Below the pieces are notes generated by a model, which made no database searches, had not been told where the DNA came from, and was given only the letters and a program-made list of their open reading frames with translations. Source: Ramlibacter sp. (GTDB lineage Bacteria > Pseudomonadota > Gammaproteobacteria > Burkholderiales > Burkholderiaceae_C). From it: a DNA stretch of 35,862 nt. A program made the translations under genes and the position numbers. Positions 6,913 to 35,186 of this stretch are shown here, in pieces. The first letter of the stretch is position 1; every line of letters starts with the position of its first letter. The stretch covers positions 1 through 35,862 of the forward strand of contig JAURKV010000112.1 in assembly GCA_030831585.1 (NCBI GenBank), read 5' to 3'.

Positions 6913-6943
6913 TAGTTAGAACATCTGCTCGGAGACGCGCCCC

Positions 6944-13208: not shown

Positions 13209-13270
13209 GAATGGCGCTGCCTTGATACCCGGGACTAGGGAAAACTTGGAGAGAAGCCAGATCAACTGAA

Positions 13271-13281
13271 TGCACAATGCA
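13271..13281. promoter_or_regulatory. TGCACaATGCA operator-like site 4
   Basis: AATGCACAATGCATT between divergent MFS (-) and TctC (+); one mismatch. Confidence 0.65.
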
Positions 13282-13366
13282 TTTTACAGCCGCGTTCGCG
13301 ACGCCTTGGCATGACCAGGCGCCGCACAGGCTGGACCCCCTTCTGTTACCCCCTGGAGATACGTCC

Positions 13367-15587: not shown

Positions 15588-16745
15588 TCAGATACCACCC
15601 GATCGCCGCATCAGCACCAGTTCATCGGCGCTGAATCCCCACTCGGCCAATACCTCGTCGGTGTGCTGGCCCACCTCGGGCGGCGGTCCCTGCACCTGAC
15701 CCTGGCTGCGTGAGAAGCGCGGGGCCGGCGCAGGCTGGGTGACGCCTGCCACCTCCACGAAGTTGCCCCGGGCGCGCTGGTGTGGGTCGCCCGGTGCCTC
15801 GGCCAGCGACAGCACCGGCGAGAAGCAGGTGTCTGTGCCCTCGAAGGCCTGAACCCATTCATCCCGGGTGCGCTGCTTGAATGCGGCAGCCATGGCCGCC
15901 TGCACCTGGGGCCAGCCGGCGCGGTCATGTTGCTCCGGGAAGTCTTGCGCGCGCAGGCCCAGCACCTCCATGGTGTTCAGGTAGAAGCTGTGCTCGGTCG
16001 AACCGACCGCCACCCACTTGGCGTCGCGCGTCTCGTACACCTGGTACCAGGGCGCGCCGGAGTCCAGCCGGTTACTGGCCCGCTCGTCGCGCCAATAGCC
16101 CGCCGCAAAAACGCCATAGACCATGGACATCAGCGAGGTGGTGCCATCGATCATGGCCGCGTCCACCACCTGGCCCTTGCCGGAGTTGCGCGCCTCGTGC
16201 AGTGCGCACAGGATGCCAAAGGCCAGGTACATGGCGCCGCCGCCAAAGTCGCCCAGCAGGTTGAGGGGAATTGCAGGCGGCCCGTCCTTCGGGCCCATCG
16301 CGTGCAACGCGCCCGAGAGGGCGATGTAGTTCAGGTCATGCCCCGGCGCCTTGGCCAGGGGGCCGTCCTGGCCCCAGCCGGTCATGCGTCCGTAAACCAG
16401 CTTCGGGTTGAGGGCCATACAGACATCGGGGCCCAGGCCCAGGCGCTCCATCACGCCGGGACGAAAGCCCTCCACCAACACGTCGGCACGGGCAACCATG
16501 CGCTGGATCGCCTCGACCGCGACCGGTTTTTTGAGGTCCATGGCCACCGAGCGTTTACCCCGGAACATCACATCGAAGCGGCGCTCCACCGGCAAGCCGC
16601 TCTCCCCCGCATGCTTGCGGTCGATGCGGATCACTTCGGCACCCATATCCGCCATGAGCATGGTGCAAAACGGGCCGGGGCCGACACCGCCGACCTCAAG
16701 AACGCGAAGGCCAGCCAGCGGGCCGGGGTGCGGAGGTTTGTTCAC
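15588..16745 (-). CDS. CaiB/BaiF CoA-transferase family protein
   Basis: PLAGLRVLEVGGVGPGPFCTMLMADMGAEVIRIDRK...FRGKRSVAMDLKKP...RADVLVEGFRPGVMERLGLGPD...YGRMTGWGQDGPLAKAPGHDLNYIALSG: AMACR-like signature. Confidence 0.95.
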   Translation of the reverse strand: MNKPPHPGPLAGLRVLEVGGVGPGPFCTMLMADMGAEVIRIDRKHAGESGLPVERRFDVMFRGKRSVAMDLKKPVAVEAIQRMVARADVLVEGFRPGVMERLGLGPDVCMALNPKLVYGRMTGWGQDGPLAKAPGHDLNYIALSGALHAMGPKDGPPAIPLNLLGDFGGGAMYLAFGILCALHEARNSGKGQVVDAAMIDGTTSLMSMVYGVFAAGYWRDERASNRLDSGAPWYQVYETRDAKWVAVGSTEHSFYLNTMEVLGLRAQDFPEQHDRAGWPQVQAAMAAAFKQRTRDEWVQAFEGTDTCFSPVLSLAEAPGDPHQRARGNFVEVAGVTQPAPAPRFSRSQGQVQGPPPEVGQHTDEVLAEWGFSADELVLMRRSGGI

Positions 16746-16825
16746 TGGGGCTCCTTGGTTTCACGCCGGTGCCGCAAGGGTGTGGGGGCAAGCAAATGAA
16801 AGCCTACGCCAATTCGCTGGCCCGC

Positions 16826-18007
16826 TCAGACCGGCAGGTAGACATCGCCCCGGGAGAGCAGGGCATCGATCTCGGCGGGCGGGTATACCTCGGCCAGAAT
16901 CTCCCGTGTGTGCTCGCCCACGCGGGCACGCAGCTCGCTGCGTGCGGGCCGCTGGCCGTCAAAGCGCCAGGGTGGGCGCACCACCGGAATGCCCTTGACC
17001 TCGGGGCCGACCAGGCCCAGCCACTGAGTCTGCTCGTGCTCGACTACCTCGTGCATGGTGAGGGCGGGTGCGAAAGGCACGTCGGCCTCGACCAGCAGGC
17101 GCTCCCACTCGGCACGCGGCTTCTTGCGGAAAGCGGTCTCCATGATGGCCACCAGGGCTTCGTAGTTCTCGGGCACCCTGCGCACGTCGTAGGTGGCGTA
17201 GCGCGGGTCGTCAATCAATTCCGGGTGGCCTGCCACCCGGGCGAGGTTGCCCCAGAACTTTTGCGAGAGGGACAGGTGGACCGTGATCGCGCCCCCATCG
17301 GCGCACTGGAGGCAGAAGTTCTGCGCCTGCGGGTGACGGGAGTTGCGAACCGGGTCGAAATTCGCCTCGTAGGCGTGCGTGAGGGCATCGATGGTGATCA
17401 TCGACACCGCCTCATGAAGCGACGTTTCCAGCAGCGTCCCCTTGCGGTCCGCGCTTCGCTCACGGCCCAGAAGCGCCGCCAGGATGCCCATGGCGCTGCC
17501 AATGCCGGTGATCAGGTCGGCCATGCAGGTACCGGTGAGGCGCCGGTTGCCAGCGTCGTTCATGATGGAGTAGATGCCGCCGATGCTCTGACCGATGGTG
17601 TCGTAGGCCGGCCGGTCCACCCAGGGGCCGCCACTTCCGAAGCCGGAGATCGAGGTGTAGATGAGGCTCGGGTTTAGAGGGCGGCAGTCCGCCTCGCCCA
17701 GCCCCAGCGCCGCCATCTTGCCCGGACGCATGTTCTCAATGAGCACGTCGAACTTGGGCACAAGGGCCTTGACCACCCCGGCGCCGGCCGGGGTCTTCAG
17801 GTTGACGGCGATGCTCTTCTTGCCAGTGTTGTACTGGATGAAATACGCGTTGTTGTTGTCCTCGCCACGGCGGAAGGCTTCCCCTCCACGGGGCTCAACC
17901 TTCACCACCTCGGCGCCGAGGGCTGTGAGGATCACCCCGGCGTAGGGCGCCGAGATATAGGCGCCGACTTCAAGCACCCGGATGCCGGCAAGGGGCTGCG
18001 CTTTCAC
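16826..18007 (-). CDS. CaiB/BaiF CoA-transferase family protein
   Basis: VKAQPLAGIRVLEVGAYISAPYAGVILTALGAEVVKVEPRGGEAFRRGEDNNNAYFIQYNTGKKSIAVNLKTP...; GTG start at 18007 with SD AGGAGACCACAC. Confidence 0.95.
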   Translation of the reverse strand: MKAQPLAGIRVLEVGAYISAPYAGVILTALGAEVVKVEPRGGEAFRRGEDNNNAYFIQYNTGKKSIAVNLKTPAGAGVVKALVPKFDVLIENMRPGKMAALGLGEADCRPLNPSLIYTSISGFGSGGPWVDRPAYDTIGQSIGGIYSIMNDAGNRRLTGTCMADLITGIGSAMGILAALLGRERSADRKGTLLETSLHEAVSMITIDALTHAYEANFDPVRNSRHPQAQNFCLQCADGGAITVHLSLSQKFWGNLARVAGHPELIDDPRYATYDVRRVPENYEALVAIMETAFRKKPRAEWERLLVEADVPFAPALTMHEVVEHEQTQWLGLVGPEVKGIPVVRPPWRFDGQRPARSELRARVGEHTREILAEVYPPAEIDALLSRGDVYLPV

Positions 18008-18051
18008 GTGTGGTCTCCTATCCCTCAAATCTGGCGTTATTGCGTAAACAA

Positions 18052-18062
18052 TGCATTATGCA
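18052..18062. promoter_or_regulatory. TGCATtATGCA operator-like site 5
   Basis: Perfect inverted repeat between divergent CaiB (-) and MFS (+). Confidence 0.75.
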
Positions 18063-18081
18063 CGGCGCCAGGATATCAAAG

Positions 18082-18092
18082 TGCATAATGCG
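18082..18092. promoter_or_regulatory. TGCATaATGCg operator-like site 6
   Basis: One mismatch; exactly 30 bp from site 5, about 3 helical turns. Confidence 0.65.
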
Positions 18093-18117
18093 CCGAAATG
18101 CTCATGGACCGCTGCCT

Positions 18118-19371
18118 GTGAAAGACGCTGCGCCCCTTGCCAATACGGTGCCGGAGCCGCCGCAAGAGCCACAACAGCGCCCTGGGGGTCCAGTGCTGCT
18201 GATACTGGCAACCGCCGCCTTTGTCAGCCTGGCCGGCACCCGACTTTGCGATGCCATGCTGCCGGCCCTGGCCGAGGCCTTTGAAACTGGCACGGTGGAG
18301 GCCTCGGCGGTGGTCTCAGCCTATGCGATCGGCTACGCGGTGACCCAGTTGCTCTGGGGTCCGGTGGGCGACCGCCACGGCAAGCTGCGAGTGATCGCCA
18401 TCGCCGCGCTGGCCTGCACCGCCATCACCCTGGCGGCGGCAGCAGCCACCAGCCTCTCCGCGCTGGTGCTGGCCCGGGCCGCCATGGGCGCTACCGCGGC
18501 GGGCATCTTTCCCTTGGGCCTGGCCTGGATCAGCGACAACGTGCCACTGGCCCAGCGCCAGCAGGCCCTGGCCCGCTTTTCGGGGGTCTCGGTGTTCGGG
18601 ATGATCTTGGGGCCGCTGCTCGGCGGACTGCTGTCCGAGGCCTGGAGCTGGCGCGGTGCCTTTTTGGTGGTGGCGGCTATGTACGCCATCATCGCGTGGG
18701 TCGTCTGGCGGCGTGACCGCGCGGCGAAGGCTGAGGCCGCGACCCAGCCCCAACCCCAGCTGTCTGCGGGCCCGAGCCCCAGCCTGGTTCAAGGCCTGCG
18801 TCACCTCTGGGCCCTGCCCTGGGCGCGGGTGGTGCTGCTGGCCACGGCCGCCGAAGTGGCCCTCGGGATCGGTTGCGTGGCGCTAGCGCCTACCGTGCTG
18901 CATCAGCGCTTCGGCCTGCCCCTGGACAAGGCCGGGGCCGTGGTTGCCCTCTTCGGAGTTGGCGGCTTTTTATTCAGCCGGGCAGCGCCGTGGCTCCTGC
19001 GGCAGATTGCGCGGCCCAGACTTCCGGCACTGGGGGGTGCGATCATGGGCGCAAGCATCGCCAGCCTGGGACTGATCCCGGACTGGGGCTGGGCGGCACC
19101 CGCCTGCGTCTTGGCCGGGTTTGGCTTCTTCACCCTACACAACACGCTGCAGGTGCAGGTGACGCAACTGGCGCCCGATGCCTCGGGGCTGTCCTTCGCA
19201 GCCTTTACCGCCAGCAATTTCTTCGGCCAGAGCGCCGGCGTGGCAATCATCGCGCTGGCATGGGCGCGGTTCGGTGAACTGCCAGTATTCCTGGTCTGCG
19301 GCGCTGGACTGTTGGCACTGGGGCTGGCGATGAGCGTCCTGGTCCAGCGCCGGGTGGAGGCGCTTACTTGA
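18118..19371 (+). CDS. MFS transporter (Bcr/CflA-like drug/efflux type)
   Basis: Multi-TM: VLLILATAAFVSLAGTRLCDAMLPALAEAFETGTVEASAVVSAYAIGYAVTQLLWGPVGDRHGKLRVI...; start uncertain (GTG 18118 or ATG 18088); 18010 would translate through both operators. Confidence 0.88.
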   Translation: MKDAAPLANTVPEPPQEPQQRPGGPVLLILATAAFVSLAGTRLCDAMLPALAEAFETGTVEASAVVSAYAIGYAVTQLLWGPVGDRHGKLRVIAIAALACTAITLAAAAATSLSALVLARAAMGATAAGIFPLGLAWISDNVPLAQRQQALARFSGVSVFGMILGPLLGGLLSEAWSWRGAFLVVAAMYAIIAWVVWRRDRAAKAEAATQPQPQLSAGPSPSLVQGLRHLWALPWARVVLLATAAEVALGIGCVALAPTVLHQRFGLPLDKAGAVVALFGVGGFLFSRAAPWLLRQIARPRLPALGGAIMGASIASLGLIPDWGWAAPACVLAGFGFFTLHNTLQVQVTQLAPDASGLSFAAFTASNFFGQSAGVAIIALAWARFGELPVFLVCGAGLLALGLAMSVLVQRRVEALT

Positions 19372-20146
19372 TCATGCCGTAGCCGCCATCCACAGGGATT
19401 TCGACCGCAGTGAGGTAGGAGCCGGCCTTGGAGGCGAGGTAGAGGGCGGCACCGGCCATGTCGGACTCGTTGGTCAGGCGCCCCAGCGGAATGTTGGCAG
19501 TCATGGCTTCGAGCCCCTTGCGCGCGATGGTGCCCTGGAGCATCTTGCTCGGGAACTGCCCGGGGGCGATCACGTTGGCCACCACATGGCGACGCGCCAA
19601 TTGAGAGGCCAGGTGCTTGGTCAGGTGGTGCAGTGCCGCCTTGCTCGAGGTGTAGGCATAGGTCTCGTGCGCCGGCAGGTACAGGGCGTTGATCGAGCCG
19701 ACGTTGATGATGCGCGCCGGGTCTTCGGCAGTTCCTGCAGCCTCGAGCGATGGCATCAGGTCGCGGATCAGGAAAAAGGTGCCACGCACATTGAGGTCAT
19801 AAACCTTATCCCAGCCAGACTCGGGGTACTCGGCCAGCGGCGCCGCCCACAGCGCACCCGCGTTGTTGATCAACACGTCGAGTTGGGGCACCCGGGCGAG
19901 GAAGTCGGTGGTAAAGCGCCTGCGGTCTTCGTCAGAGGCAATGTCACAAGCCAGCGGGGTGCACTCGCCAAAAGGCGCCAGCTCGGCGGCCAGCGCCTCA
20001 CAAGCCGCGAGGTCGCGCGAGCAGATGTAGACCTTGGCGCCGCACTTGACGAAGGCGGTGGTGATGGCCGCGCCAATGCCCTTGGCGCCGCCGGTGATCA
20101 GGACGGTCTTGCCAGCGACACCGAACAGCTCGTTGAGGAGGTCCAT
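19364..20146 (-). CDS. SDR family oxidoreductase
   Basis: LFGVAGKTVLITGGAKGIGAAITTAFVKCGAKVYICSR...LDVLINNAGALWAAPL...YAYTSSKAALHHLTKHLASQLA... Confidence 0.95.
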   Translation of the reverse strand: MDLLNELFGVAGKTVLITGGAKGIGAAITTAFVKCGAKVYICSRDLAACEALAAELAPFGECTPLACDIASDEDRRRFTTDFLARVPQLDVLINNAGALWAAPLAEYPESGWDKVYDLNVRGTFFLIRDLMPSLEAAGTAEDPARIINVGSINALYLPAHETYAYTSSKAALHHLTKHLASQLARRHVVANVIAPGQFPSKMLQGTIARKGLEAMTANIPLGRLTNESDMAGAALYLASKAGSYLTAVEIPVDGGYGMIK

Positions 20147-20166
20147 GGGGTGATTCCTTTGAATAA

Positions 20167-20177
20167 AACATTATGCA
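20167..20177. promoter_or_regulatory. AACATtATGCA operator-like site 7 (degenerate)
   Basis: AACATTATGCATGATT, 20 bp upstream of the SDR start at 20146; one half-site degenerate. Confidence 0.5.
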
Positions 20178-20204
20178 TGATTGGGCCGGATAACCCCGTG
20201 GCCA

Positions 20205-21080
20205 TCAGGCCAGGGCCCGGCCCAGGAAGCCCACCACCGCCTGACCGAAAGCGTCGTTCGCGTCGCCGGCAATCATGTGGCCGGCCTCTTCGATCACTAC
20301 GTACTCGGACTGCGGCACCATCTCCAGAAATTCGCGCGCACCGGCCTCGCTTAAAACGTCGGAACGGCCACCGCGCATCAGCAACGTGGGCAGGGTCAGA
20401 CGTCGAGCAGCTGCGGCCATACGCGCATAGCGGTGCGGATATTCGCGGACCCGGCTATCGAGCAGGCGGGCGTCCCAGTGCCATTGCAGGCGGCCGTCGG
20501 GTCGCCGGCGCACCACCTTGGCCAGGCCATCCACCCGGGACGGGCGCGACCCGCCACGGTGGCTGGCGATGGCATCGGCCACCTCCTCCAACGAGGCAAA
20601 GCCGTCGGCATGGGCCTCCATGAAGGCCTTGTTACGCAGGAAACCCTCCTCCTCGGTGCGGGGCGCGTAGTCGACCAGGACCAGGCCGGCCGCATCGATC
20701 AGGCCCTCACCCACGCCAAGCAAAAAGGCCTCGGCTGAAAGCGAGGCCCCCACCAGCACCGGCCGTCGCCCGGCCAGTGCGGGCACCGCCAGGAGGTTGC
20801 GCAGGCCACGAATGTGGGTGTCCATTCCGTAGTCACCGTCCGCGGTCCAGTCGGAGTCGCCATGGCCGAGGCAGTCGAACGCCACCGCGCAATAGCCAGC
20901 GTCGCCGAGGCGCCGGCCCGTGTCGCGCCAGGCGTGTCGGGTCTGACCGCCGCCGTGCCCTAGCACGACCAGCGGGGCAGCCGGGTCGCCCCAGCTGTCG
21001 GCTGCCAGGCGTAGACCGGCCTCAGTCGGCCACATATGCATCGGCGTGGGGGTACCCGGCAGTCGTTCGCCTGCGTTCAC
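20205..21080 (-). CDS. alpha/beta hydrolase
   Basis: PLVVLGHGGGQTRHAWRDTGRRLGDAGYCAVAFDCLGHGDSDW...VLVGASLSAEAFLLG...VVIEEAGHMIAGDAND; GTG start overlapping the upstream stop (GTGA). Confidence 0.92.
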   Translation of the reverse strand: MNAGERLPGTPTPMHMWPTEAGLRLAADSWGDPAAPLVVLGHGGGQTRHAWRDTGRRLGDAGYCAVAFDCLGHGDSDWTADGDYGMDTHIRGLRNLLAVPALAGRRPVLVGASLSAEAFLLGVGEGLIDAAGLVLVDYAPRTEEEGFLRNKAFMEAHADGFASLEEVADAIASHRGGSRPSRVDGLAKVVRRRPDGRLQWHWDARLLDSRVREYPHRYARMAAAARRLTLPTLLMRGGRSDVLSEAGAREFLEMVPQSEYVVIEEAGHMIAGDANDAFGQAVVGFLGRALA

Positions 21081-21763
21081 GGCTCAGCCTCCCCGACCCA
21101 AGTGACCACTTCGCTCAGCGGGGCGCGTGTGGTGCGAAAGCCGTTGGCTGGATGCGTGGGATCTGCGAAGCCAATCGAAATGCCGCAGACAACATTCCGG
21201 TCTGTGGGCAGCGGGAGGTGCGAGCGCAGGATGTCGGGCCAGGAGGCTACTGCAGCCTGGGCGATCGTGCCCAGGCCCAGGGCCGTGGCAGCCAGCATGA
21301 AGTTGGACACCCAGGCGCCGCAGTCCATCACCCCGTGCGTGCCCAGGTCCTGCGGACTGGTCACCACCGCCAGGTGCGGCGCGCCAAACAGGCGGAAATT
21401 CTCCAGCCCCTGGGCGGCAGAGGCCGCCCGGTCACCCTTGGGCACGCCGACCGCCTCATACAGGGCCCAGCCGCATTCGCGCCGGCGGTCACGGTAGACC
21501 CCGCTGTACTCGCGCGGCCAGTCGAGCTCCGGGGCGGCCAGCGCTCCGGAGCCGGCGCGCGCGATCAGCGCCGCACGCAGCCGCTCGAGCGGCTCGCCGC
21601 TGGCGATATGAACCTGCCAAGGCTGCGCGTTGCACCAGGAGGCGCTGCGGCCGGCGGCGGCGAGGGCCCGCTCGAGCAGGTCCCGCGGCACCGGGTCGGG
21701 CCGGAAGGCGCGGCAGCTGTGGCGCCGTGCCAGCAGTTGGTCCAGGCTCGCCAGTTCGTCCAT
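21077..21763 (-). CDS. nitroreductase family protein (FMN-dependent)
   Basis: LLARRHSCRAFRPDPVPRDLLERALAAAGRSASWCNAQPWQVHIASGEPLERLR...FGAPHLAVVTSPQDLGTHGVMDCGAWVSNFMLAATALGLGTIAQAAVASWPDILR... Confidence 0.92.
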   Translation of the reverse strand: MDELASLDQLLARRHSCRAFRPDPVPRDLLERALAAAGRSASWCNAQPWQVHIASGEPLERLRAALIARAGSGALAAPELDWPREYSGVYRDRRRECGWALYEAVGVPKGDRAASAAQGLENFRLFGAPHLAVVTSPQDLGTHGVMDCGAWVSNFMLAATALGLGTIAQAAVASWPDILRSHLPLPTDRNVVCGISIGFADPTHPANGFRTTRAPLSEVVTWVGEAEP

Positions 21764-21804
21764 CAGGTGCCGTACATCAAGTGTCGCTCACGAGGCAGCA
21801 CTAC

Positions 21805-23073
21805 TCAGATCACGCCCTGGGCGCGCAGGGCAGCGATCTCGGCCTCGGGAAGCTGGAGCAGCCCGCCATAAACGTCGGCATTGGCAGCGCCCAGAGTCTG
21901 CGCCGGCACGTCGAACTGGGCGTGGGCGTCGGAAAAACGGATCGGGTTGCCGATGCCGCTGGTGCGCTGGTCGCCCATCATCGGGTGCTCGAGCACGGTG
22001 ACCGCGCCGCGCGCGATCAGCTGCGGGTCGGACAGCACCTCGGCGGGCGCGCGCACGCGGGTGGCCGGCACTTGGCGCTTCTCGAGCAATTCGGTCACAA
22101 CCTCGGCAGTGCTGCGCACACGAGTCCAGGCCTCGATGTAGCCGTTGAAGGCGGCGGCGTGGGCCATGCGCGGACCGCGGCTGGCAAAGCGCGGGTCGTC
22201 GAGCAACTCGGGTCTGCCTATGGCCTCCACCAGGGGCCGAATCCACTCCGGCCGGAACGCCACGATGGCCACATGACCATCCGTACAAGGGTAGACCCCG
22301 AAGGGAACCAGCCGGTCGTGCGAATTGCCCGAGCGGCGCGGCACGCCAGCCTGCGCAAATAGATCGAAATGCTCCTCGGCCAAAAGGGAGGCCATGCAAT
22401 CGAGCATGGAGACCTGCACATGCTGGCCACGGCCAGTACGACCACGCTGAATGAGGGCGGCCAATATGCCGTTGACCGCGTACAGGGGTGTCACCAGGTC
22501 GGCGATCGGAATGCCGATGCGGGTGGGTGGGCCGTCGGCAAAGCCGGTCACCTCCATCAAGCCGCAGGCCGCCTGCACCAGAATGTCCATGCCCTTGAGG
22601 CCGGGTACCACGCTGGGCTCTCCAAAGGAGCTGATGGAGCCGTAGACGATGCGCGGATTGACCTCGGCGGTACGGGCGTAGTCGATGCCGAGGCGAGTGG
22701 TGGCGCCCTCGCTCATGTTCTCCAGAACGACGTCGCACTCCTGAACGAGCCGGAAATACAGCTCGCGCCCTTTGGGAGACTTGAGGTCCAGGGTGACGCT
22801 CTTCTTGTTGCGGCCGCGGTTAACGATGGTCACCGAGATCTCGTCCTCGGCCATCGCGCCACCAAAGTTGATGCCGCGCCGGCTGACGAAGGGCGGGTTG
22901 GTCCGGGCGATGTCCCCGCCGCCAGGGGACTCGACGTGGATCACCTCCGCGCCCAGGCCCGCCAGCATCAGGGCGCCATAGGGGCCAGCCAGGGCCACGG
23001 TCAGGTCCAGGACACGGATGCCCTCAAGCGGACGTTGGAGCGGGTTGGCGCTGGCGCCAGGGCTTGCGTTCAT
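21805..23073 (-). CDS. CaiB/BaiF CoA-transferase family protein
   Basis: MNASPGASANPLQRPLEGIRVLDLTVALAGPYGALMLAGLGAEVIHVESPGGGDIARTNPP...VLENMSEGATTRLGIDYA...YGSISSFG; starts next to the upstream ECH stop (SD AGGAGAAGTCCTGAT). Confidence 0.95.
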   Translation of the reverse strand: MNASPGASANPLQRPLEGIRVLDLTVALAGPYGALMLAGLGAEVIHVESPGGGDIARTNPPFVSRRGINFGGAMAEDEISVTIVNRGRNKKSVTLDLKSPKGRELYFRLVQECDVVLENMSEGATTRLGIDYARTAEVNPRIVYGSISSFGEPSVVPGLKGMDILVQAACGLMEVTGFADGPPTRIGIPIADLVTPLYAVNGILAALIQRGRTGRGQHVQVSMLDCMASLLAEEHFDLFAQAGVPRRSGNSHDRLVPFGVYPCTDGHVAIVAFRPEWIRPLVEAIGRPELLDDPRFASRGPRMAHAAAFNGYIEAWTRVRSTAEVVTELLEKRQVPATRVRAPAEVLSDPQLIARGAVTVLEHPMMGDQRTSGIGNPIRFSDAHAQFDVPAQTLGAANADVYGGLLQLPEAEIAALRAQGVI

Positions 23074-23074
23074 A

Positions 23075-23872
23075 TCAGGACTTCTCCTCACGGGGGCCAG
23101 CTTTGCCAGCGGCGAATTGGGTGACGCCATCGGCCAAGGCAGGTGACTCCAGACGATAACGAAACTGCATCCAGCGCTCCAGGGCCAAGCCGTCGTGCAG
23201 CGGCAGCTCCGGTGCGCGACGTGCGGTGTACTTCAGGCTGGCCAGGGCATGCGGGTCGGCCTCGGCGATTTCCTGGGCCAGTTGCATCACAGTGGCTTGC
23301 AACTCGGCGCCTGGGACTGCCAGCGCCGCCAGGCCAATACGCTCGGCCTCGCGACCGCTCATGCGCCGGCCACTCAGAAGATAGTACAGGGCGCGCGGCA
23401 GGCCAATGCGCCGTGGCAGGCGTTGGGTGCTGCCACCGCTGGGAAATAGGTTCTTGCGAATGTGTTCGTCGCCCATCATCGCGTCCTCGTCGGCAACGAC
23501 GATGTCGCAGGACAGGGCCAGCTCCAGCCCCCCAGCCACCGCAATGCCGTTGACGCAGGCGATCACGACCTGCCGGGCCGACTCCAGGCCCTGATAGGCA
23601 GCCTGCATGCGGTCCTGGTTCTGCAGGTGGGCAGCCGGGTCGTGCAAGGCGTGCTCGGCGATCCACTTGAGGTCAGTGCCGGAGCAAAACGCCCGGCCCT
23701 CGCCGCGAATCACGATGACCCGGATGTCGTGCCCCGGCGCCGAGCAGCCCTCGACCGCGGCGCGCAGGGCTATGAGGGTTGGGCCGTCGAGCGCGTTGAG
23801 CCGTTGGGGCCGGTCGAGGGTAAGAACCCGCACCCGCGGCGTGCTGTCGTCAATGCGCAATCCGTCGCTCAT
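23075..23872 (-). CDS. enoyl-CoA hydratase/isomerase family protein
   Basis: RVRVLTLDRPQRLNALDGPTLIALRAAVEG...VIVIRGEGRAFCSGTDLKW...QVVIACVNGIAVAGGLELALSCDIVVADEDAMMGDEHIRKNLFPSGGSTQRLPRRIG: crotonase fold. Confidence 0.95.
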   Translation of the reverse strand: MSDGLRIDDSTPRVRVLTLDRPQRLNALDGPTLIALRAAVEGCSAPGHDIRVIVIRGEGRAFCSGTDLKWIAEHALHDPAAHLQNQDRMQAAYQGLESARQVVIACVNGIAVAGGLELALSCDIVVADEDAMMGDEHIRKNLFPSGGSTQRLPRRIGLPRALYYLLSGRRMSGREAERIGLAALAVPGAELQATVMQLAQEIAEADPHALASLKYTARRAPELPLHDGLALERWMQFRYRLESPALADGVTQFAAGKAGPREEKS

Positions 23873-23985
23873 GGAGTGTGGTCAAGCAGGGGCATGGAGC
23901 CGCAGGGTGCAGGGTGGGCGCAATCCGCGCGTGCAATTTTTCACGCTGGAACGACCGCGACATGGCGGCCGCGACAGCGTGATTA

Positions 23986-23996
23986 TGCATAGTACA
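23986..23996. promoter_or_regulatory. TGCATaGTACA operator-like site 8 (degenerate)
   Basis: ATTATGCATAGTACAT between divergent ECH (23872,-) and ECH (24144,+). Confidence 0.5.
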
Positions 23997-24143
23997 TTCT
24001 GGAGCCTGCCGCGCACGTGATATTGAACACTTGCCGCGGGGGCCGCCGCTGTCGCCAAGGGCCACAGAGACAGCGCCCCGTGTTGCAAAATTCTTGGCGC
24101 GAAACACACAAAGTAATTTTTTTTGACCCGCCGGAGACACCCC

Positions 24144-24935
24144 ATGGCCGACACCCATCAATACGAGACGATTCTTTACCGCGAGGAGGGCCCGGTGGGC
24201 ATCCTCACGCTCAACCGGCCGCATGACGGCAATAAATTCAACCGCCTCGCCTGCCAGGAAGTTCGAGACTGTATCGAGTCGATCCGCCGCGAGACCCGCA
24301 CCCGGGTGCTGGTGATCACCGGTGCCGGCGACAAGTTTTTCTGCATTGGCGGCCACCACGACGGCGACCAAAGCTCCCGCCTCTACCCGGGTGCGCCGTC
24401 CACGCTGGAGATCTACGAAGCCATCGAGCGCCTGCAAAAGCCGGTGATCGCCTCGGTCAACGGCTTTGCCGTGGGCGGCGGGCATGTGCTGCATGTGGTG
24501 TGCGACCTGACCATTGCTAAAGAAAGCGCGATCTTCCGCCAGGTCGGCCCCATGGTGGGGAGCTTCGACGCCGGCTACGGCACCTGGTACCTGGAGGACC
24601 TGGTTGGCAAGAAGAAGGCCAAGGAAATCTGGTTCATGAACGAGAAGCTGACCGCCCGGGAGGCGCTGGGCCTGGGGTTGATCAACCGGGTGGTGCCCGA
24701 CGCCGATCTGGAGCGCGAGACGATGGCGATGGCACTCAAGATCGCCGAGCGCGGCTCGTATGCGCTGGCGGCCTTGAAGGGCGCGTTCAACGCCCGCCAT
24801 GGCGGCGTGGGCGGCCTGGCCCGGGTGACACACGACCTGATGCTGCCGCACTACTACGCCTCGGAAGAAGCGCACGAGCTGCACGACGCGTTTGCCAACA
24901 AGCGGGCGCCTGACACTACGAAGTTCGGTCGGTAA
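24144..24935 (+). CDS. crotonase-fold protein resembling 2-ketocyclohexanecarboxyl-CoA hydrolase (BadI) / MenB
   Basis: FAVGGGHVLHVVCDLTIAKESAIFRQVGPMVGSFDAGYGTWYLEDLVGKKKAKEIWFMNEKLTAREALGLGLINRVVP: the QVGP.(V/M)GS.D.GYGT...VG.KKA.EIW.M block matches recalled BadI/MenB sequences. Confidence 0.82.
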   Translation: MADTHQYETILYREEGPVGILTLNRPHDGNKFNRLACQEVRDCIESIRRETRTRVLVITGAGDKFFCIGGHHDGDQSSRLYPGAPSTLEIYEAIERLQKPVIASVNGFAVGGGHVLHVVCDLTIAKESAIFRQVGPMVGSFDAGYGTWYLEDLVGKKKAKEIWFMNEKLTAREALGLGLINRVVPDADLERETMAMALKIAERGSYALAALKGAFNARHGGVGGLARVTHDLMLPHYYASEEAHELHDAFANKRAPDTTKFGR

Positions 24936-24963
24936 AGGCCGGTCCTTCGGGCTGGGCTTTTTT
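24936..24963 (+). terminator. possible rho-independent terminator after the BadI-like gene
   Basis: AAAGGCCGGTCC-TTC-GGGCTGGGCTTTTTT right after the TAA; imperfect stem (wobble pairs, one bulge) plus T6. Confidence 0.45.
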
Positions 24964-25076
24964 GGCGTTGCCGGGGAACGCCAAGGGTGCTTGGCGTTGG
25001 CGGGGCACGCGCCGGGTGTACAGGTGGCGCTTGACTCTTTGCGGGGCACGCGCCCGGTGTGCGGCAGGGGCCCGGC

Positions 25077-25505
25077 GGCTTCGATGCAGGGGCCCTTCGG
25101 GCTTCCTTGCGGTGCTCGGCCGCCAGGGGCACGCGAGGCAAACTCGGCCCTCCGGGCCTCAAACATGCCTCGCTCTTCGGCCCCCAGCGCCCTGTGCGCC
25201 TCAGCCCCGCATAGGCGCCGCCGAACCCCTGCCGCACACCCTGTGCTTACCTCAGGCGGAGGACTTCTCGACGCCGCCTTTGGTGACGTCGTTGGAAAGG
25301 GTTGTCGGAGAGAGGCCTCCTGAATGAAGGAAGCGGCGGGTGTGCGGTGCGGGGGCAGCGGCGCCTATGCGGGGCCGAGCAGCGCAGCGTCGGGCGGAAA
25401 AAGAGTCGGGGCATGTCTGAGCCGCCGCAGGCGGCGAGTTTGCCCCGGCTCCCGCACGGCGCGAGCAGCACAGGGAAGCCCGAAGGGCCCCCGCATCGAA
25501 GCCGA
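25077..25505. repeat. long imperfect inverted repeat, arms ~25077-25247 and ~25329-25505
   Basis: Left arm GGCTTCGATGCAGGGGCCCTTCGGGCTTCC...CAAACTCG...CAGCCCCGCATAGGCGCCGCCG...CCGCACACCC; reverse complement of right arm GGCTTCGATGCGGGGGCCCTTCGGGCTTCC...CAAACTCG...CGGCCCCGCATAGGCGCCGCTG...CCGCACACCC. Confidence 0.85.
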
Positions 25506-25585
25506 TGCGCCCGTACCGCATGCCCGTCGCGTTGCAGGCCAAGCACCAAGAAAGTGACCCCGAAAGGAGGCGCCGAAGAAAGACC

Positions 25586-26350
25586 TCAGTGCGAAGGCCG
25601 CCCCGCGGTGTTGCCGCCATCCACAGGCACCACCGCACCGGTAACAAAGCTGGCGTCGTCCGAGAGCAAAAAGGCGACGACAGCTGCTACCTCCTCGGGC
25701 TCACCCACGCGGCCCAGCGGATAGGCTGCGCGGATGCCCTCGGTTTTGCTCGGGTCGGCCAGGGTGCTGGCGATCATGGGGGTACGAATCAGCCCAGGTG
25801 CGACTGCGTTCACCCGAATGCCCATAGGGCCGAGTTCCAGTGCCATCGCCTGGGTGATGCCCGACACCCCCATCTTGGCCGCGACGTACGCCAGCCGGTT
25901 GGGAAGGGCGCGGATACCTGCGGTGGACGAAATATTCACGATCGCGCCCGGACGGCCGGCCAACTGCATCGCCCGCACAAAAGCCTGGCAGGTGTTGAAG
26001 GTGCCGTCGAGGTTGACGGCGAGCACACGCTCCCAGGCCTCGGGGGTCCAGTCCATCAGGGTGCCGATGCCGCGGATACCCGCGCAGTTCACGAGGCCGT
26101 ACAGGGGGCCGAGGCGGCTGGCGGCATCAGCCATGGCGCTGGCTACGGCCGCATGGTGGGTGACGTCGACCACCCGCAGATGCAGTTGCGCCGGCTCACC
26201 CTGTGTGCGGGCCAGGTCTGTGAGGGCCGCCTCCTGGATGTCCATCGCCAGCACCGTCGCGCCTTCGTCCAGCAGGCGACGCACACAGGCGGCGCCGATG
26301 CCGCTGGCAGCGCCCGTCACGAGTACGGTGCGGTTTTCTAAACGCTTCAT
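25586..26350 (-). CDS. SDR family oxidoreductase
   Basis: [43 protein letters not shown]...[57 protein letters not shown]; true start 26350. Confidence 0.95.
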
Positions 26351-26354: not shown

Positions 26355-26963
26355 TTACTCCGGGGCGCTTCCCGAGCTGTGGGTGGGTGCCGTCGCCGGC
26401 CGATGAAACTGCGGCCAGCGTTTGAGCACCAGCGGGCCGTCGGCGGCATAGGCATAGCAGCCGTCGATCTGACGCGGCTTGCCGTTTTCATCGACTCGGT
26501 CGGGGCCCTTGATCAGGAGGAAGCCCAGGGACTGGAAGACGGCGGTTGCCATCGGGGTAAGGATTTCCATCAGGTGGGTGCAGCTGCGCGCGCCGGAGAG
26601 ACGGCTTCGGACCTCGCTGTTCCAGCCCTTGGACATGCGCAGGCCCACAAGAGTTTGCAGCGCTCGACCCCCCTCTGGGCAGTGAGAAAAGGGCGCGTAG
26701 TCGGTGAAGGTCTCGATCTCGCGCACCACCAGGTCGAGGTCGTAGACAAGGCGCACGCCCATGTCGTGGATCGCATCACCGGCGGGCACCGAGCGGCCCT
26801 CGCGGTGATGAAAATCCACGGTCTTGCGGTCGACCACCCGACCCTCAATCTCGAATAAACCGTCGCTGCGCTGGTAGGCGGTGAAGTCGATCTTGCGGGT
26901 GTGCAAAACCTCGCGAGTGACTGCGCTTTTGGGGGCAACGCCCTTGGAGGTGGGGGTGGTCAT
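26355..26963 (-). CDS. DUF2889 domain-containing protein
   Basis: [82 protein letters not shown]...[24 protein letters not shown]; start at 26963 rather than 27269. Confidence 0.82.
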
Positions 26964-27063: not shown

Positions 27064-27963
27064 TCAAGCGAACTGAATCTCGGCCTGCATGGTGAGCCAG
27101 CCCTCGTGGTCCTGCGCCCACAGGCGGGCACTGCGGCCATCTGCCGCCGGCGCGCCGCAAACCCGAAAGGGGTGCAAGTCGGTGGTCGGGCGCACCGCGC
27201 GGAAGCTGAAGCCCGTGACACGGGCCTCGGGCCGCTCGCGCCGGGCCAGGTCGGCCAGCAAGGTGGCAATCAGCGGGCCGTGCACCACCAGGCCAGGGTA
27301 GCCCTCGGCGCCGGTGGCATAAGGCCGGTCGTAGTGGATGCGATGGGCGTTGAAGGTCAGCGCCGAAAAGCGGAACAAGAGCACCGGGTCGGGCACGATT
27401 TCGCGCGACCAGGTGGCGTCGCTGGGCGCCGCCTGCGGCGCCGGCACTGGGTCGCCGGCTTGCGCCGGCGCGCGGTAGACGATGTCTTGTTCCTCGGTCA
27501 GCGAGAGCACGCCGCCAGCGCGGACTTCGTGGCGCAGCAGCAGAAAGACCAGGTCGCCGCTACGCCCGGATTTATGCGTGACCGACTCGATGCGGGTGCT
27601 GCGCTCCAATGCGTCGCCCACACGCAAGGGCGCATGCCACTTCAGGCGGCCGCCAGCCCACATGCGGCGCGGCAGCGGCACCGGAGGCAGAAAGCCGCCC
27701 AGGCGGGGGTGGCCGTCGGCGCCGATTTCGCGCTGCGGAGCGCGCGGGAGGAAGTAGAGCCAGTGCCACAGGGCCGGCAGGGCGGCGCCCGAAATAGTGG
27801 GGGTGTCGGCATCGCGGTCCAGGGTGGCGGCCAGGGCCCGTACGGGCGCGGCGCCGGCAGGCTCCTCGAAGGATTCGCTGCGGCCCTCCCACGTGCGCAG
27901 GTGAGCCAGCAGCTCCGGGGTGATGCGCACAGGCTCCGAAGGCGTACCAGCTTCAGCCATCAC
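27064..27963 (-). CDS. FAS1-like/HTD2-type acyl-CoA hydratase (mesaconyl-C4-CoA hydratase-like, MaoC superfamily)
   Basis: TISGAALPALWHWLYFLPRAPQREIGADGHPRLGGFLPPVPLPRRMWAGGRLKWHAPLRVGDALERSTRIESVTHKSGRSGDLVFLLLRHEV...SALTFNAHRIHYDRPYATGAEGYPGLVVHGPLIATLLADL. Confidence 0.9.
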   Translation of the reverse strand: MMAEAGTPSEPVRITPELLAHLRTWEGRSESFEEPAGAAPVRALAATLDRDADTPTISGAALPALWHWLYFLPRAPQREIGADGHPRLGGFLPPVPLPRRMWAGGRLKWHAPLRVGDALERSTRIESVTHKSGRSGDLVFLLLRHEVRAGGVLSLTEEQDIVYRAPAQAGDPVPAPQAAPSDATWSREIVPDPVLLFRFSALTFNAHRIHYDRPYATGAEGYPGLVVHGPLIATLLADLARRERPEARVTGFSFRAVRPTTDLHPFRVCGAPAADGRSARLWAQDHEGWLTMQAEIQFA

Positions 27964-29144
27964 ACCACCCCCTTGGCGCGCAGCGCGGCGATGGCCTCCG
28001 GGGAATAGCCGATCTCCTGCAGCACCTCCTCGGTGTGCTCGCCGCAGGAGGGCGGCCGGCGGCGGATGCTGGGCGGCGTGCGCGAGAGCTCCACCGGCGT
28101 CGCGGTCAGCGGCACAGGCTGCGGGAGACCGGGGAAGTCGGTCGGGCGCAGGGCGTCAGCGGCCGCGATGATGGGGTCGGCCAGCGCCTCACGCGGGGAG
28201 TTGACCGCACCGGCCGGCACACGCCCGGCCTCCAACTCAGCGAGGGCCTGCGGCCGGGTACGCACCGCGCACCAATCGGCCATCAAGCGGCTCAACTCCT
28301 CGCCATGCTCGCCTCGGGCGAGGTCATCTTGCAGGCGCGGATCGTCGGCCAGTTCGGGGCGGCCCACCACGCGGGCCCACCGCTTGAACATGCCGGCGCC
28401 GATCACCTGCGCAATGATCCAGCGGTCGTCGCTGCAGCGGAACATGTCAGAGGGCGCGTAGTGCGGCGCCCGGTTCATGGTGGCCTTTCGGTCCACGCCA
28501 AGCGCAGCCTCCTCGATCAGGCTGCCGCTCGAATAAGTGAGCGCGGTGCGAAGCAGGGAGGCTCCCACCTCCTGCCCCATGCCGCTGGTCTTGCGTTCGT
28601 AAAGCGCCATCATGGTGCCGAGCGCGCAGGCCATGCCGGTGCCGAAGTCGACCACCGGCGCCATGATCTTGACCGGATGATCGGGCAGGCCGCTCATATG
28701 GACCGCTCCACTCATGCACTGGGCCACGCCGTCAAAACCGACACGGTCACTGACCGCTTCACTGGTGCCAAAGGCGGTGGAGGCGGTGAGGATCACATCG
28801 GGCCTGATGCGACGCAGGCTTTCGTAGTCCAGCCCGAGTTTGACCAGCGTGCGTGGGGGCATGTTGGCAATCACCACGTCGGCGCGGCGCACCAGGTCGT
28901 GCAGCACCCGCTGCCCGTCGGGGGTGTCGATCTCCAGCGCGATGGAGCGCTTGTTGCGATTGACCTGGAGGAACTGCGCGCCCTCGCCTTGCGAGGACAC
29001 CGGCAAGATGGTGCGGTCTTCGGCGCCGCCCACGCGGTCGACACGAATCACATCAGCGCCGTAGTCGGCGAGCAGCGCGGCGCAGTAAGGGCCAGCGATG
29101 AAGCGGCCGAGGTCGAGAACGCGAATGCCTTGCAAGACCGTCAT
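27960..29144 (-). CDS. CaiB/BaiF CoA-transferase family protein
   Basis: MTVLQGIRVLDLGRFIAGPYCAALLADYGADVIRVDRVGGAEDRTILP...GAQFLQVNRNKRSIALEIDTPDGQRVLHDLVRRADVVIANMPPRTLVKLGLDYESLRRIRPDVI; stop overlaps the next start (ATGA). Confidence 0.95.
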   Translation of the reverse strand: MTVLQGIRVLDLGRFIAGPYCAALLADYGADVIRVDRVGGAEDRTILPVSSQGEGAQFLQVNRNKRSIALEIDTPDGQRVLHDLVRRADVVIANMPPRTLVKLGLDYESLRRIRPDVILTASTAFGTSEAVSDRVGFDGVAQCMSGAVHMSGLPDHPVKIMAPVVDFGTGMACALGTMMALYERKTSGMGQEVGASLLRTALTYSSGSLIEEAALGVDRKATMNRAPHYAPSDMFRCSDDRWIIAQVIGAGMFKRWARVVGRPELADDPRLQDDLARGEHGEELSRLMADWCAVRTRPQALAELEAGRVPAGAVNSPREALADPIIAAADALRPTDFPGLPQPVPLTATPVELSRTPPSIRRRPPSCGEHTEEVLQEIGYSPEAIAALRAKGVV

Positions 29145-29159: not shown

Positions 29160-29909
29160 TCAGCCGTAACGGCCGCCGGTGACATGCAGCACCTCGCCCG
29201 AGATGAAGCTGGCGCGCTCGCTGGCCAGGAAGGCCACCGCGTCGGCTACATCTTCCGGGCGACCCGTGCGCTTGACCGGTTGCACGGCCAGCGCACGCTC
29301 CTTGATCACTTCGTAGGTGTCGAGCGCGCGAATCATCTCCGTCTCCATGAAGCCCGGCGCCACGCAGTTGACGGTAACGCCGTAGCGGCCCTCCTCCATC
29401 GACAGCGCCTTGGCCATTCCGATCAGACCGGCTTTGGCCGCGGAGTAGTTGGACTGCGTCGGGTTGCCGAAGTGGGCGCGGGAGCTGATGTTGATCACGC
29501 GGCCCCAGCCTTGCTCGATCATCTTGGGCATGACGGCACGGCTGGCAAGAAACGCGCCCTTGAGCATGACGTTGATCACCAGGTCCCAGTCGTCTTCGCT
29601 CATTTTGACCAGGTATTTGTCACGCGGAGCGCCTGCGTTGTTAACGAGGATGTGCACGCTGCCAAAGGTGGCCACCGTCTCATTGACGAGGCGCTCCACA
29701 TCGGCCTGCTTAGTGATATCACCCACCACGCAGTGGGCCTGCAAGCCCTCGGCCCGCAAGGCCTCGGCGGTCTTTTGCGCGAGCTCACCGTTGATGTCGG
29801 TGATCACCACCTTGGCTCCCTCCTGGGCCAGGCGACGCGCCGTGGCGGCTCCAAGGCCGCGCGCCGAACCGGTGACGATGGCCACCTTGTCCTTCAGTCC
29901 GAGATCCAT
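29160..29909 (-). CDS. SDR family oxidoreductase (FabG-like)
   Basis: MDLGLKDKVAIVTGSARGLGAATARRLAQEGAKVVITDINGELAQ...ILVNNAGAPRDKYLVKMSEDDWDLVINVMLKGAFLASRAVMPKM...NYSAAKAGLIGMAKALSMEEGRYGVTVNCVAPGFMETEM. Confidence 0.95.
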   Translation of the reverse strand: MDLGLKDKVAIVTGSARGLGAATARRLAQEGAKVVITDINGELAQKTAEALRAEGLQAHCVVGDITKQADVERLVNETVATFGSVHILVNNAGAPRDKYLVKMSEDDWDLVINVMLKGAFLASRAVMPKMIEQGWGRVINISSRAHFGNPTQSNYSAAKAGLIGMAKALSMEEGRYGVTVNCVAPGFMETEMIRALDTYEVIKERALAVQPVKRTGRPEDVADAVAFLASERASFISGEVLHVTGGRYG

Positions 29910-29994
29910 GTCACAGTCCTTTCAGTTCCTCTTGCCGGCGACCCAGAGGCGGCAGCAAGTAGCCTGCCGAAACTTGCCGGGCGAACCATCAAAA

Positions 29995-30005
29995 TATATC
30001 ATGCA
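29995..30005. promoter_or_regulatory. TATATcATGCA operator-like site 9
   Basis: AAATATATCATGCATTAC between divergent SDR (29909,-) and quinone oxidoreductase (30040,+). Confidence 0.65.
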
Positions 30006-30039
30006 TTACTCGCTCGCCCCCTCTGGAGAACACATCATC

Positions 30040-31073: not shown

Positions 31074-32033
31074 TCACTCGGGCTGAATGCCCGCGCGGTT
31101 GACCACTTGACGCATCACACCCAGGTCTTCGTTCCAGAGACGGGTTTGCGCGTCGCCACAGAGCACCAGCGGGATCAGGTCACGCTTTTCCATATTCGTC
31201 TGGGCGGTCTGCGACTTTAGGGCCTGGGACATCAGGTCGCGCAACTGGGCGAGCACCGCCGGCGGGGTTTTGGCTGAGGCATAGAAGCCGAACCAGACCT
31301 GGATCTGGTAGCCAGGCACACCCGCTTCGCTGGCAGAGGGCACATCACCCAAGGCCTTGAGCCGCTGCGAGCCCGCCAGGGTCAGCGCGCGCACCTTGCC
31401 GGTTTGATAAAAGGGCGTTGCCGACACATGGTCAATGAAGATCATGTCGACCTGGCCGCCGCCCACGTCGGTGAGCGCCTGCACGCTGGAGCGGTAGGGA
31501 ACGCCGGTGAGCTTGATGCCCGCGGCCTGCATGAACAGCTCGCCCGCCAGACGCTGGACCGTGCTGGCATAACCGAAGGTGATCTTGCCCGGGTCGGCCT
31601 TGGCAGCCGTCACCAGGTCGGCCACGGTTTTATAGCGGGATGCGCCGGTGATGTTCAGAACATTGCTGGTACGGGCGAAGGTGCACACCGAGGCGAAGTC
31701 CTTCACCGCGTCATAGGGCATGTTCTTCTTCATCAGCGGGTCTAGCACGGTCAGCGAGTTGCTGGTGAACATGAGCGTGTGGCCGTCGGCAGGGGCATTG
31801 AGCACCGCCTGCGCGCCCAAGGCGCCCTCTGCGCCCAACTTGTTCTCGACGATCACGTTCTGCTTGGCGATCGCCGAGAGCACCTGAGCGAACTCACGGG
31901 CGTTGACATCGGTGGTTGTGCCTGCGCTAAACGGTACCACCACCGTGATCGGCTTGGTGGGGAAGGTTTGGGCCGTTGCGGCACTCACCAGGGCGAAGCC
32001 CGCTAGGGCTAAAAGGGAAATTCGTTTGAACAT
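31074..32033 (-). CDS. Bug/TctC-family substrate-binding protein
   Basis: MFKRISLLALAGFALVSAATAQTFPTKPITVVVPFSAGTTTDVNAREFAQVLSAIAKQNVIVENKLGAEGALGAQAVLNAPADGHTLMFTSNS... Confidence 0.92.
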   Translation of the reverse strand: MFKRISLLALAGFALVSAATAQTFPTKPITVVVPFSAGTTTDVNAREFAQVLSAIAKQNVIVENKLGAEGALGAQAVLNAPADGHTLMFTSNSLTVLDPLMKKNMPYDAVKDFASVCTFARTSNVLNITGASRYKTVADLVTAAKADPGKITFGYASTVQRLAGELFMQAAGIKLTGVPYRSSVQALTDVGGGQVDMIFIDHVSATPFYQTGKVRALTLAGSQRLKALGDVPSASEAGVPGYQIQVWFGFYASAKTPPAVLAQLRDLMSQALKSQTAQTNMEKRDLIPLVLCGDAQTRLWNEDLGVMRQVVNRAGIQPE

Positions 32034-32085
32034 GCGTGCCTCCAAAGTGAAACGTGGGGACCAGGGAACAACGAAAGGGAGCGGG

Positions 32086-32930: not shown

Positions 32931-33803
32931 TCAGCGACCCACACCCAAATTTTTCGCGATCTCGTCGAGCCGTCGTTTTTTCTGGTCCAGCGTCATCTCG
33001 AAGTCGAGCCGGCCCTGCAGCGTCTCGGAGGGCACCACCAGCGTGTCAAAACCCGCATCGACATAGGGCTGCATCTGCTCTTTGGACGGCTCACCCCACA
33101 CCCGGGCCTGGAAGGAATAGGGATTGGTCAGGCCCGACTCGGCGCGGATCTTGTCAATCGCCTGCTTGTAGCCAATGGCCTCGTCGGGGCGCACCATCGG
33201 ACCGTACCAGCCGTCGCCCGCGCGCGCGGCGCGCTCGAGCGCCTTGGGCATGGTGCCGCCAAACACCATCGGCACGCGCACCGGCCATTCGGTCACGCGC
33301 AGCTCCTTGAAGGGAAAGTGCGGGCCATCGTTGCTGACCCACTCGCCGTTGAACAGGCGCGGCAACAGGGGCACCGCCTCGTTGTAACGCTTGTGACGGA
33401 GCTCGAAGGGAATGCCGAGACCTTCGGACTCTTCTTTCCACCAACCCGCGCCCATGCCAAGCTGGAAGCGGCCGCCACCAATCTGCTGCGCGGTGATCGC
33501 CGCGCGTGCGGTCGCCACCGGATGGCGCAGGGACATCAGATAGATGCCGGTGGTGACGGTGAGCTTTTCGGTGCCACCCAAAATGCCGCCGACCATGGTC
33601 CACATGTCGTACATCTTGCGGGCCACGGTGTGCACTGGCACGAAGGTCTTGCCCTCGTCATGCGGGTGGGCCGACTCGAACTCTCGCGGCTCCAGAATAT
33701 GCTCGCCGAGCCAGATGCCGTGAAAGCCCAGGCCTTCGGCGTGGCGGGCCAGGGGAATGATGTCGTCGGGGCGAATGCCGTAGGTGGCGAAGCCGAATTT
33801 CAT
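32931..33803 (-). CDS. LLM class (luciferase-like) flavin/F420-dependent oxidoreductase
   Basis: MKFGFATYGIRPDDIIPLARHAEGLGFHGIWLGEHIL...TVTTGIYLMSLRHPVATARAAITAQQIGGGRFQLGMGAGWWKEESEGLGIPFELRHKRYNEAVPLLPRLFNGEWVSNDGPHFPFKEL. Confidence 0.93.
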   Translation of the reverse strand: MKFGFATYGIRPDDIIPLARHAEGLGFHGIWLGEHILEPREFESAHPHDEGKTFVPVHTVARKMYDMWTMVGGILGGTEKLTVTTGIYLMSLRHPVATARAAITAQQIGGGRFQLGMGAGWWKEESEGLGIPFELRHKRYNEAVPLLPRLFNGEWVSNDGPHFPFKELRVTEWPVRVPMVFGGTMPKALERAARAGDGWYGPMVRPDEAIGYKQAIDKIRAESGLTNPYSFQARVWGEPSKEQMQPYVDAGFDTLVVPSETLQGRLDFEMTLDQKKRRLDEIAKNLGVGR

Positions 33804-34830: not shown

Positions 34831-34880
34831 GGGTCGCGCCCGCCTGGCGCCTGCGGGCGCGAAGCCCCGGAAAGTGTCAA

Positions 34881-34891
34881 TGCATGATGCA
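34881..34891. promoter_or_regulatory. TGCATgATGCA operator-like site 10
   Basis: Perfect inverted repeat (ATGCATGATGCAT), 50 bp upstream of the LysR start. Confidence 0.72.
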
Positions 34892-35186
34892 TCGGGTGCG
34901 TTGGCCGCGTCAACCGGGCCGACCCTGAGGCCATCGGCCGCAGCTTACAGGCCGCAGGTCATTCGGAGATCCGATAGGCCCTATCCGAAAACATCATTGG
35001 ACGCCCCCCCCGGGGGCCACCTAACCTTCCCTTCCAAAGTCGCCACCCGGTTCGGTGGTGCCGGAACCTGTACAGACGCCCCATGCCTCCCTTCCGCACG
35101 AACGCCGCCAGACACCGCCAGGTGCCGCCGGGCGCCGCGTCCCGGCGCCTGGTACCGCAAGCGTCATGCGCCCCGGAGACCCCGCA

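Follow-up and report, generated by a model that had tools for sequence, protein, structure and literature searches.

A MenB/BadI-like crotonase of a third, uncharacterised branch, predicted to hydrolyse C-C bonds, in a catabolic gene cluster of Ramlibacter sp.

The window analysed here is one whole contig (C63; 35,862 nt) of a Ramlibacter sp. genome that is 81% complete and consists of 295 contigs. By its predicted gene content, this 36-kb contig is a dense carboxylic-acid catabolic cluster (Table 1). The gene under study, a stop-free open reading frame of 263 codons, encodes a protein that matches Pfam ECH_1 (E=4.6e-50) and contains the blocks GGGHVLHVVCDLTIA, RQVGPMVGSFDAGYGT and VGKKKAKEIW, on which a preliminary description of the DNA had based its recognition of the protein. 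Its copies in metagenome-assembled genomes of two sister species are 98-99% identical, and differ from it at 21 and 49 synonymous versus 3 and 4 non-synonymous codons; this excess of synonymous differences indicates that the gene is under purifying selection.

Table 1. Genes and operator-like sites in the window.
Feature	Coordinates	Strand	Remark
Acyl-CoA dehydrogenase	2309-3505	-	leftward gene run; motif site 5592 upstream of first gene
CitE/HpcH-type lyase	3526-4485	-	in run of acyl-CoA dehydrogenase
Motif site GTGCATCATGCAT	5592-5604
Motif site ATGCATAATGCAT	6901-6913		perfect
GntR/FCD transcriptional regulator	8412-9290	-	candidate owner of operator; beside site 9392
Motif site ATATATCATGCAT	9392-9404		between GntR gene and PrpD gene
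Motif site ATGCACAATGCAT	13270-13282
Motif site ATGCATTATGCAC	18051-18063		between CaiB and MFS genes
SDR oxidoreductase	19364-20146	-	own motif site at 20166
Motif site AAACATTATGCAT	20166-20178		upstream of SDR 19364-20146
Alpha/beta hydrolase	20205-21080	-	operon of CaiB 21805-23130
Nitroreductase-family flavoprotein	21077-21763	-	operon of CaiB 21805-23130
CaiB-type CoA-transferase (family III)	21805-23130	-	in leftward operon of ECH; profile
Enoyl-CoA hydratase (ECH) family	23075-23872	-	divergent from hydrolase gene and syntenic with it in two sister species
Palindrome ATGCATAGTACAT, operator-like	23985-23997		divergent promoter region of ECH/hydrolase gene; identical in sister species
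Third-clade MenB/BadI-like crotonase, predicted beta-ketoacyl-CoA C-C hydrolase, 263 aa	24144-24935	+	profiles, alignment, tree
SDR oxidoreductase	25586-26347	-	last of leftward run 29909-25586; start inferred from sequence
DUF2889 protein	26355-26963	-
HTD2/FAS1-type dehydratase (hydratase) domain protein	27064-27963	-
CaiB-type CoA-transferase	27960-29144	-
SDR (FabG-like) oxidoreductase	29160-29909	-	motif site at 29994
Motif site ATATATCATGCAT	29994-30006		between SDR 29160-29909 and zinc-type oxidoreductase gene 30040
Motif site ATGCATGATGCAT	34880-34892		perfect; upstream of LysR

The locus L039 of a sister species is syntenic with positions 16153-24936 of the window, at 90% nucleotide identity, and the synteny ends at the stop codon of the predicted hydrolase gene. 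The left block (ECH, CaiB, nitroreductase, alpha/beta hydrolase, SDR) therefore travels with the gene and the right block does not; in the sister species the right-hand neighbours were not found conserved beside the gene. The best NCBIfam model for the CaiB of the left block is succinyl-CoA:mesaconate CoA-transferase, at a score below cut-off. The preliminary description had counted CaiB, ECH, SDR, acyl-CoA dehydrogenase and HTD2 genes as nearby. This holds for CaiB and ECH, which adjoin the gene, and more loosely for the SDR and HTD2-like genes, which lie 0.7-2.1 kb downstream; the acyl-CoA dehydrogenase gene is about 21 kb away, and it is a shared palindromic motif that links it to the rest of the cluster. 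The 650 bp that follow the hydrolase gene (24936-25585) are G+C-rich and hold no convincing gene. Within them, positions 25401-25532 match, at 80%, the inverse of a stretch (5627-5756) of the related locus L038, which hints at an inverted repeat.

We located this palindrome, ATGCAT-N-ATGCAT, nine times in the window, each time between genes and at a gene start; about one occurrence would be expected by chance. Counting every position with at least 10 of the 12 bases matching gives 11, some of them overlapping, against 1.2 expected. In the whole genome, a tolerance of up to two mismatches gives 40 positions, compared with 4 for the reversed pattern, and 11 of the 40 fall in this contig, which makes up 1% of the genome. 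By proximity, the local GntR/FCD protein is the probable regulator that uses this motif as its operator. A cluster in Acidovorax delafieldii (L040) combines an orthologue of the predicted hydrolase, a divergent DUF2889 gene beside it (63% identical), an SDR near it (69% identical to the product of 19364-20146) and a GntR/FCD gene (60%), likewise beside the orthologue, with a CitE lyase gene of the same family next to it, along with EtfBA and a mesaconyl-CoA hydratase-like gene; motif sites lie upstream of the orthologue, SDR, EtfB and lyase genes. As a clade-wide feature the motif was rejected: the other loci, 1.06 Mb in all, have 41 sites with at least 10 of 12 bases matching, which is roughly what background would give. 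Sites outside the window were seen on contigs C150 (three, at 26333, 26470 and 30209), C124 and C42, where related GntR/FCD proteins may control further regulons.

To place the protein in its family we compared it with curated profiles, solved structures and a tree of 64 proteins, in which the ordinary hydratases included E. coli PaaF and PaaG as well as paralogues from the same genome; EchA20 and MrcE lay outside the sampling. The protein scores 249 bits with PRK07396 MenB (NF005637; curated cut-off 380), 222.8 bits with TIGR01929 menB (cut-off 342.7) and 205.4 bits with TIGR03210 badI (cut-off 467.6), reaching none of the three cut-offs, and its best NCBIfam model outside MenB and BadI is the enoyl-CoA hydratase PRK05809, at 130 bits. 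Among solved structures, comparison by sequence as well as by fold gave MenB as the closest match. In the tree, MenB, BadI and the clade of the window protein stand together against ordinary enoyl-CoA hydratases with support of 99/98. The preliminary description had called the protein BadI/MenB-like rather than a generic hydratase and had proposed a phylogeny with BadI and MenB as the check; scores and tree both bear it out. The clade itself is monophyletic (100/99) and is joined at 100/100 by actinobacterial proteins of 50% identity. The BadI side lies elsewhere in the tree (99/96), and the branching order of the clade, MenB and BadI has support of 88/44 only. By profiles and tree, the window protein is thus a member of the MenB/BadI crotonase group, in a third, uncharacterised branch. 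Identity with MenB was rejected on cut-off, residues and tree, and identity with BadI on cut-off, BadI-specific residues and the separate clade.

The branch is uncommon: members were found in 3 of 300 other genomes of the family and 2 of 59 other congeners, and in none of the 398 other genomes sampled from the phylum. Public annotation calls them merely 'enoyl-CoA hydratase-related protein'. The window copy and its nearest relatives (L038-L042) form an offshoot inside the clade (100/99). Apart from this, the proteins L134-L137 are MenB-like, score 309-318 bits with TIGR01929, below its cut-off, and fall on the BadI side of the tree, where they make up another unassigned subgroup. The records L088, L093 and L112 are environmental assemblies titled Bordetella parapertussis, a title that the isolate names make doubtful.

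Alignment of the clade reveals seven positions invariant in 85 of 85 members, Gly70, Gly112, Gln133, Gly135, Ser140, Asp142 and Trp163, equivalent in E. coli MenB to Gly86, Gly133, Gln154, Gly156, Ser161, Asp163 and Trp184. In MenB, the oxyanion hole consists of Gly86 and Gly133, Asp163 is indispensable, a change of Arg91 to alanine abolishes activity, and Ser161 binds a product analogue at its C1-OH (PMC3637252). With MenB the window protein thus has in common the crotonase fold, 40-44% identity, the oxyanion glycines, the Gln154/Gly156/Trp184 anion pocket, Ser161 and Asp163; it differs in lacking Arg91, Tyr97 and part of the A-loop, and in its catabolic neighbourhood. The Arg91 position is occupied by Asp75 (Met or Leu in most clade members), and the Tyr97 A-loop is shortened, with Ser78 at the Tyr97 position. 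With BadI it has about 40% identity and the Gly-Tyr-Gly-Thr after the catalytic Asp in common, whereas the BadI-invariant Asp, Gln, His and Glu (E. coli MenB columns 87, 88, 91 and 109) are absent, these columns holding His71, His72, Asp75 and Leu88. At the position of Tyr258 in MenB and BadI, 78 of 85 clade members have Leu, so their chemistry may differ from that of MenB and BadI; in the window protein and L038-L042 the Tyr is kept, as Tyr238. Other near-invariant positions are peculiar to the clade, for example RRETRTRV at 48-55, Trp148 and Glu151-Asp152. By this alignment, the residues common to the clade and MenB are as compatible with condensation as with cleavage. A structure prediction, which the preliminary description had also proposed, gave an AlphaFold model with a pLDDT of 72 and values below 50 over the active-site stretches; this is too weak for geometry, and site geometry is therefore left out of these statements.

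The relatives of the window gene usually lie in a conserved operon. A survey of 86 clade loci from alpha-, beta- and gammaproteobacteria, many on cut contigs, gave the recurring order CaiB, hydrolase, AMP-ligase, ECH, SDR, acyl-CoA dehydrogenase, HAD1, HAD2 and quinone oxidoreductase, with the ligase present at 74 loci, ECH and acyl-CoA dehydrogenase at 57 each, CaiB at 54, HAD1 and SDR at 50 each, HAD2 at 49 and the oxidoreductase at 35. Annotated plasmid copies show the same operon, and plasmids of Rhodococcus and Streptomyces carry similar gene sets. Cultured carriers include Bradyrhizobium, Afipia, Cupriavidus basilensis (plasmid pRK1-1) and Celeribacter indicus P73. HAD1 matches the first 289 of the 507 positions of the 3-hydroxyacyl-CoA dehydrogenase model PRK08268; in Celeribacter HAD1 and HAD2 are fused in a 505-aa protein, and Salipiger also has one protein of PaaH length. 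PaaH acts on a dicarboxylyl-CoA, and the match suggests that HAD1 and HAD2 are a split, PaaH-like 3-hydroxydicarboxylyl-CoA dehydrogenase. The betaproteobacterial operons adjoin a sigma-54 activator gene; in the 271-bp intergenic region upstream of the window gene no sigma-54-type site was seen by eye.

In the bad-ali pathway, the reference for the enzyme types of alicyclic-acid degradation (PMC9795900), the same types surround BadI as surround the hydrolase in the clade operons; the differences are that the ligase, dehydrogenase and hydroxyacyl-CoA dehydrogenase of the clade operon belong to other families, and that CaiB genes are present. The operon ligase scores 232 bits with AliA against a cut-off of 792, and for the operon acyl-CoA dehydrogenase the cyclohexane-1-carbonyl-CoA dehydrogenase model ranks second, at 276 bits against a cut-off of 650. 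By its predicted enzymes, the clade operon is catabolic, with the enzyme types of bad-ali drawn from other families. The window's offshoot, judged by its neighbourhood, has left this operon. L041, of the same subclade, has the order hydrolase, dehydrogenase, ligase, with a ligase that matches the cyclohexanecarboxylate-CoA ligase (AliA) model at 479 bits, about equal to the 480 bits of a medium-chain ligase; the best matches to these two enzymes in the window genome, which is 81% complete, are at 35% for the dehydrogenase and 33% for the ligase. The setting of CoA activation and beta-oxidation in the preliminary description therefore applies to the orthologue operons, and in the window genome lacks a close ligase and acyl-CoA dehydrogenase.

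What reaction the window protein catalyses can be argued from these placements. An ordinary enoyl-CoA hydratase or isomerase, MenB-like in sequence alone, would have the crotonase fold and suit the public label, but it is very unlikely given a best ordinary model at barely more than half the MenB score, a tree that excludes ordinary hydratases, and a separate ECH gene already in the operons. Least likely of all is a biosynthetic synthase that forms a ring by Dieckmann condensation as MenB does. The slightly higher score with MenB than with BadI and the retained Ser161-Asp163 equivalents would agree with this; against it stand the absence of Arg91, which is essential in MenB, and of the Tyr97 loop, the catabolic neighbours, and the window genome (81% complete), in which a search for menB gave nothing at E<=1e-80 and the best menD match, at 61.8 bits, stays below the cut-off of 244.

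The preliminary description had likened the protein to 2-ketocyclohexanecarboxyl-CoA hydrolase (BadI) and MenB. A functional but diverged BadI in the bad-ali pathway for cyclohexanecarboxylate would explain the common fold group, the match to the badI model and orthologue operons with the same five enzyme types; we regard it as improbable, because true BadI proteins of congeners score 511-536 bits, over the cut-off, one genome (G317) carries both a BadI-clade protein and a third-clade member, the clade is separate and without the BadI-invariant Asp/Gln/His loop and Glu, and the operon ligase and dehydrogenase fall far under the AliA and AliB cut-offs. Somewhat less remote, though still unlikely, is hydrolysis of an acyclic beta-ketoacyl-CoA in place of thiolase, with no ring involved. 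No thiolase lies next to the hydrolase in the core operon of the 86 loci, the CaiB, HTD2-type hydratase and CitE lyase of the window resemble the catabolism of branched C5-dicarboxylates (itaconate, mesaconate), and the A. delafieldii cluster has its mesaconyl-CoA hydratase-like gene; yet some clade loci have thiolases nearby, and the characterised group members considered (MenB, BadI and EchA20) all act on rings.

We consider it fairly probable that the protein carries out hydrolytic C-C cleavage of a beta-ketoacyl-CoA, probably one with a ring, both the reaction and its direction being read from sequence. Membership in the third branch, together with the conserved acid-degradation operon usual there, points to a probable hydrolytic opening of an acid, perhaps ring-shaped. 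The ring opening of a cyclic acid suggested in the preliminary description thus gains from the alicyclic-acid enzyme types of the orthologue operon, while the cyclic substrate itself is plausible. The hydrolase would bind the beta-ketoacyl-CoA and stabilise its thioester oxyanion, and the Asp142/Ser140 region and the Gln133-Gly135-Trp163 anion pocket would promote a hydrolytic retro-Claisen cleavage, which is a retro-Dieckmann cleavage if the keto group lies in a ring; the outcome would be a dicarboxylyl-CoA or a pair of fragments. In most of the bacteria, activation by CaiB or ligase followed by acyl-CoA dehydrogenase, enoyl-CoA hydratase and SDR would prepare the substrate, and the PaaH-like 3-hydroxyacyl-CoA dehydrogenase would start beta-oxidation of the product. 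In the window, a GntR/FCD regulator with ATGCAT-N-ATGCAT as its binding site would control the expression of the hydrolase gene together with those for CaiB, ECH, HTD2, SDR, CitE and acyl-CoA dehydrogenase.

Crotonase C-C hydrolysis opens some saturated rings in anaerobes and aerobes, and to our knowledge few ring-opening crotonases have known substrates. In the literature on pathways matching the operon we found only the bad-ali, limonene (mrc, lrc), oestrogen (edc) and steroid (EchA20) systems. EchA20, the steroid ring-D hydrolase, is a crotonase of the MenB side with a proposed reverse-Dieckmann hydrolysis, 28% identical to MenB and 24% to BadI (PMC5380842), and is thus farther from both than the window protein (about 40%). 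For MrcE-type systems, hydrolytic ring opening has been predicted, with genes for a hydratase and a dehydrogenase in the cluster (PMC4109377, PMC12583861). A relationship of MrcE to BadI has been described, and we liken MrcE to the window clade by description rather than sequence. As a wider proposal, which we hold to be possible and offer tentatively, the clade may comprise undescribed ring-opening hydrolases for cyclic carboxylic acids on a route parallel to bad-ali, encoded in a mobile, often plasmid-borne operon in Alpha-, Beta- and Gammaproteobacteria with a related one in Actinomycetota; most members would have changed Tyr258 to Leu, and in the window subclade the enzyme would have come under GntR/FCD control, alongside CitE- and HTD2-type enzymes, to act on a different substrate. 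The third clade and its conserved operon would then point to a hitherto overlooked route by which alicyclic acids from plants, petroleum or pollutants are degraded, and the cultured carriers of the operon make the clade's function testable.

Some further features of the contig are recorded here. It holds at least five TctC-type solute-binding receptors (766-2010, 4562-5590, 5653-6654, 13277-14347 and 31074-32045), with a sixth likely at 10934-11977, as well as two MmgE/PrpD genes (6944-8365 and 9407-10849) and four CaiB genes. A fragment of CofG, an F420 precursor synthase, lies at the right contig end (35151-35861; 274 bits, cut-off 213), and an LLM F420-type oxidoreductase gene at 32931-33803 scores 135 bits, below its cut-off of 167; the two suggest F420 use in a Comamonadaceae bacterium.
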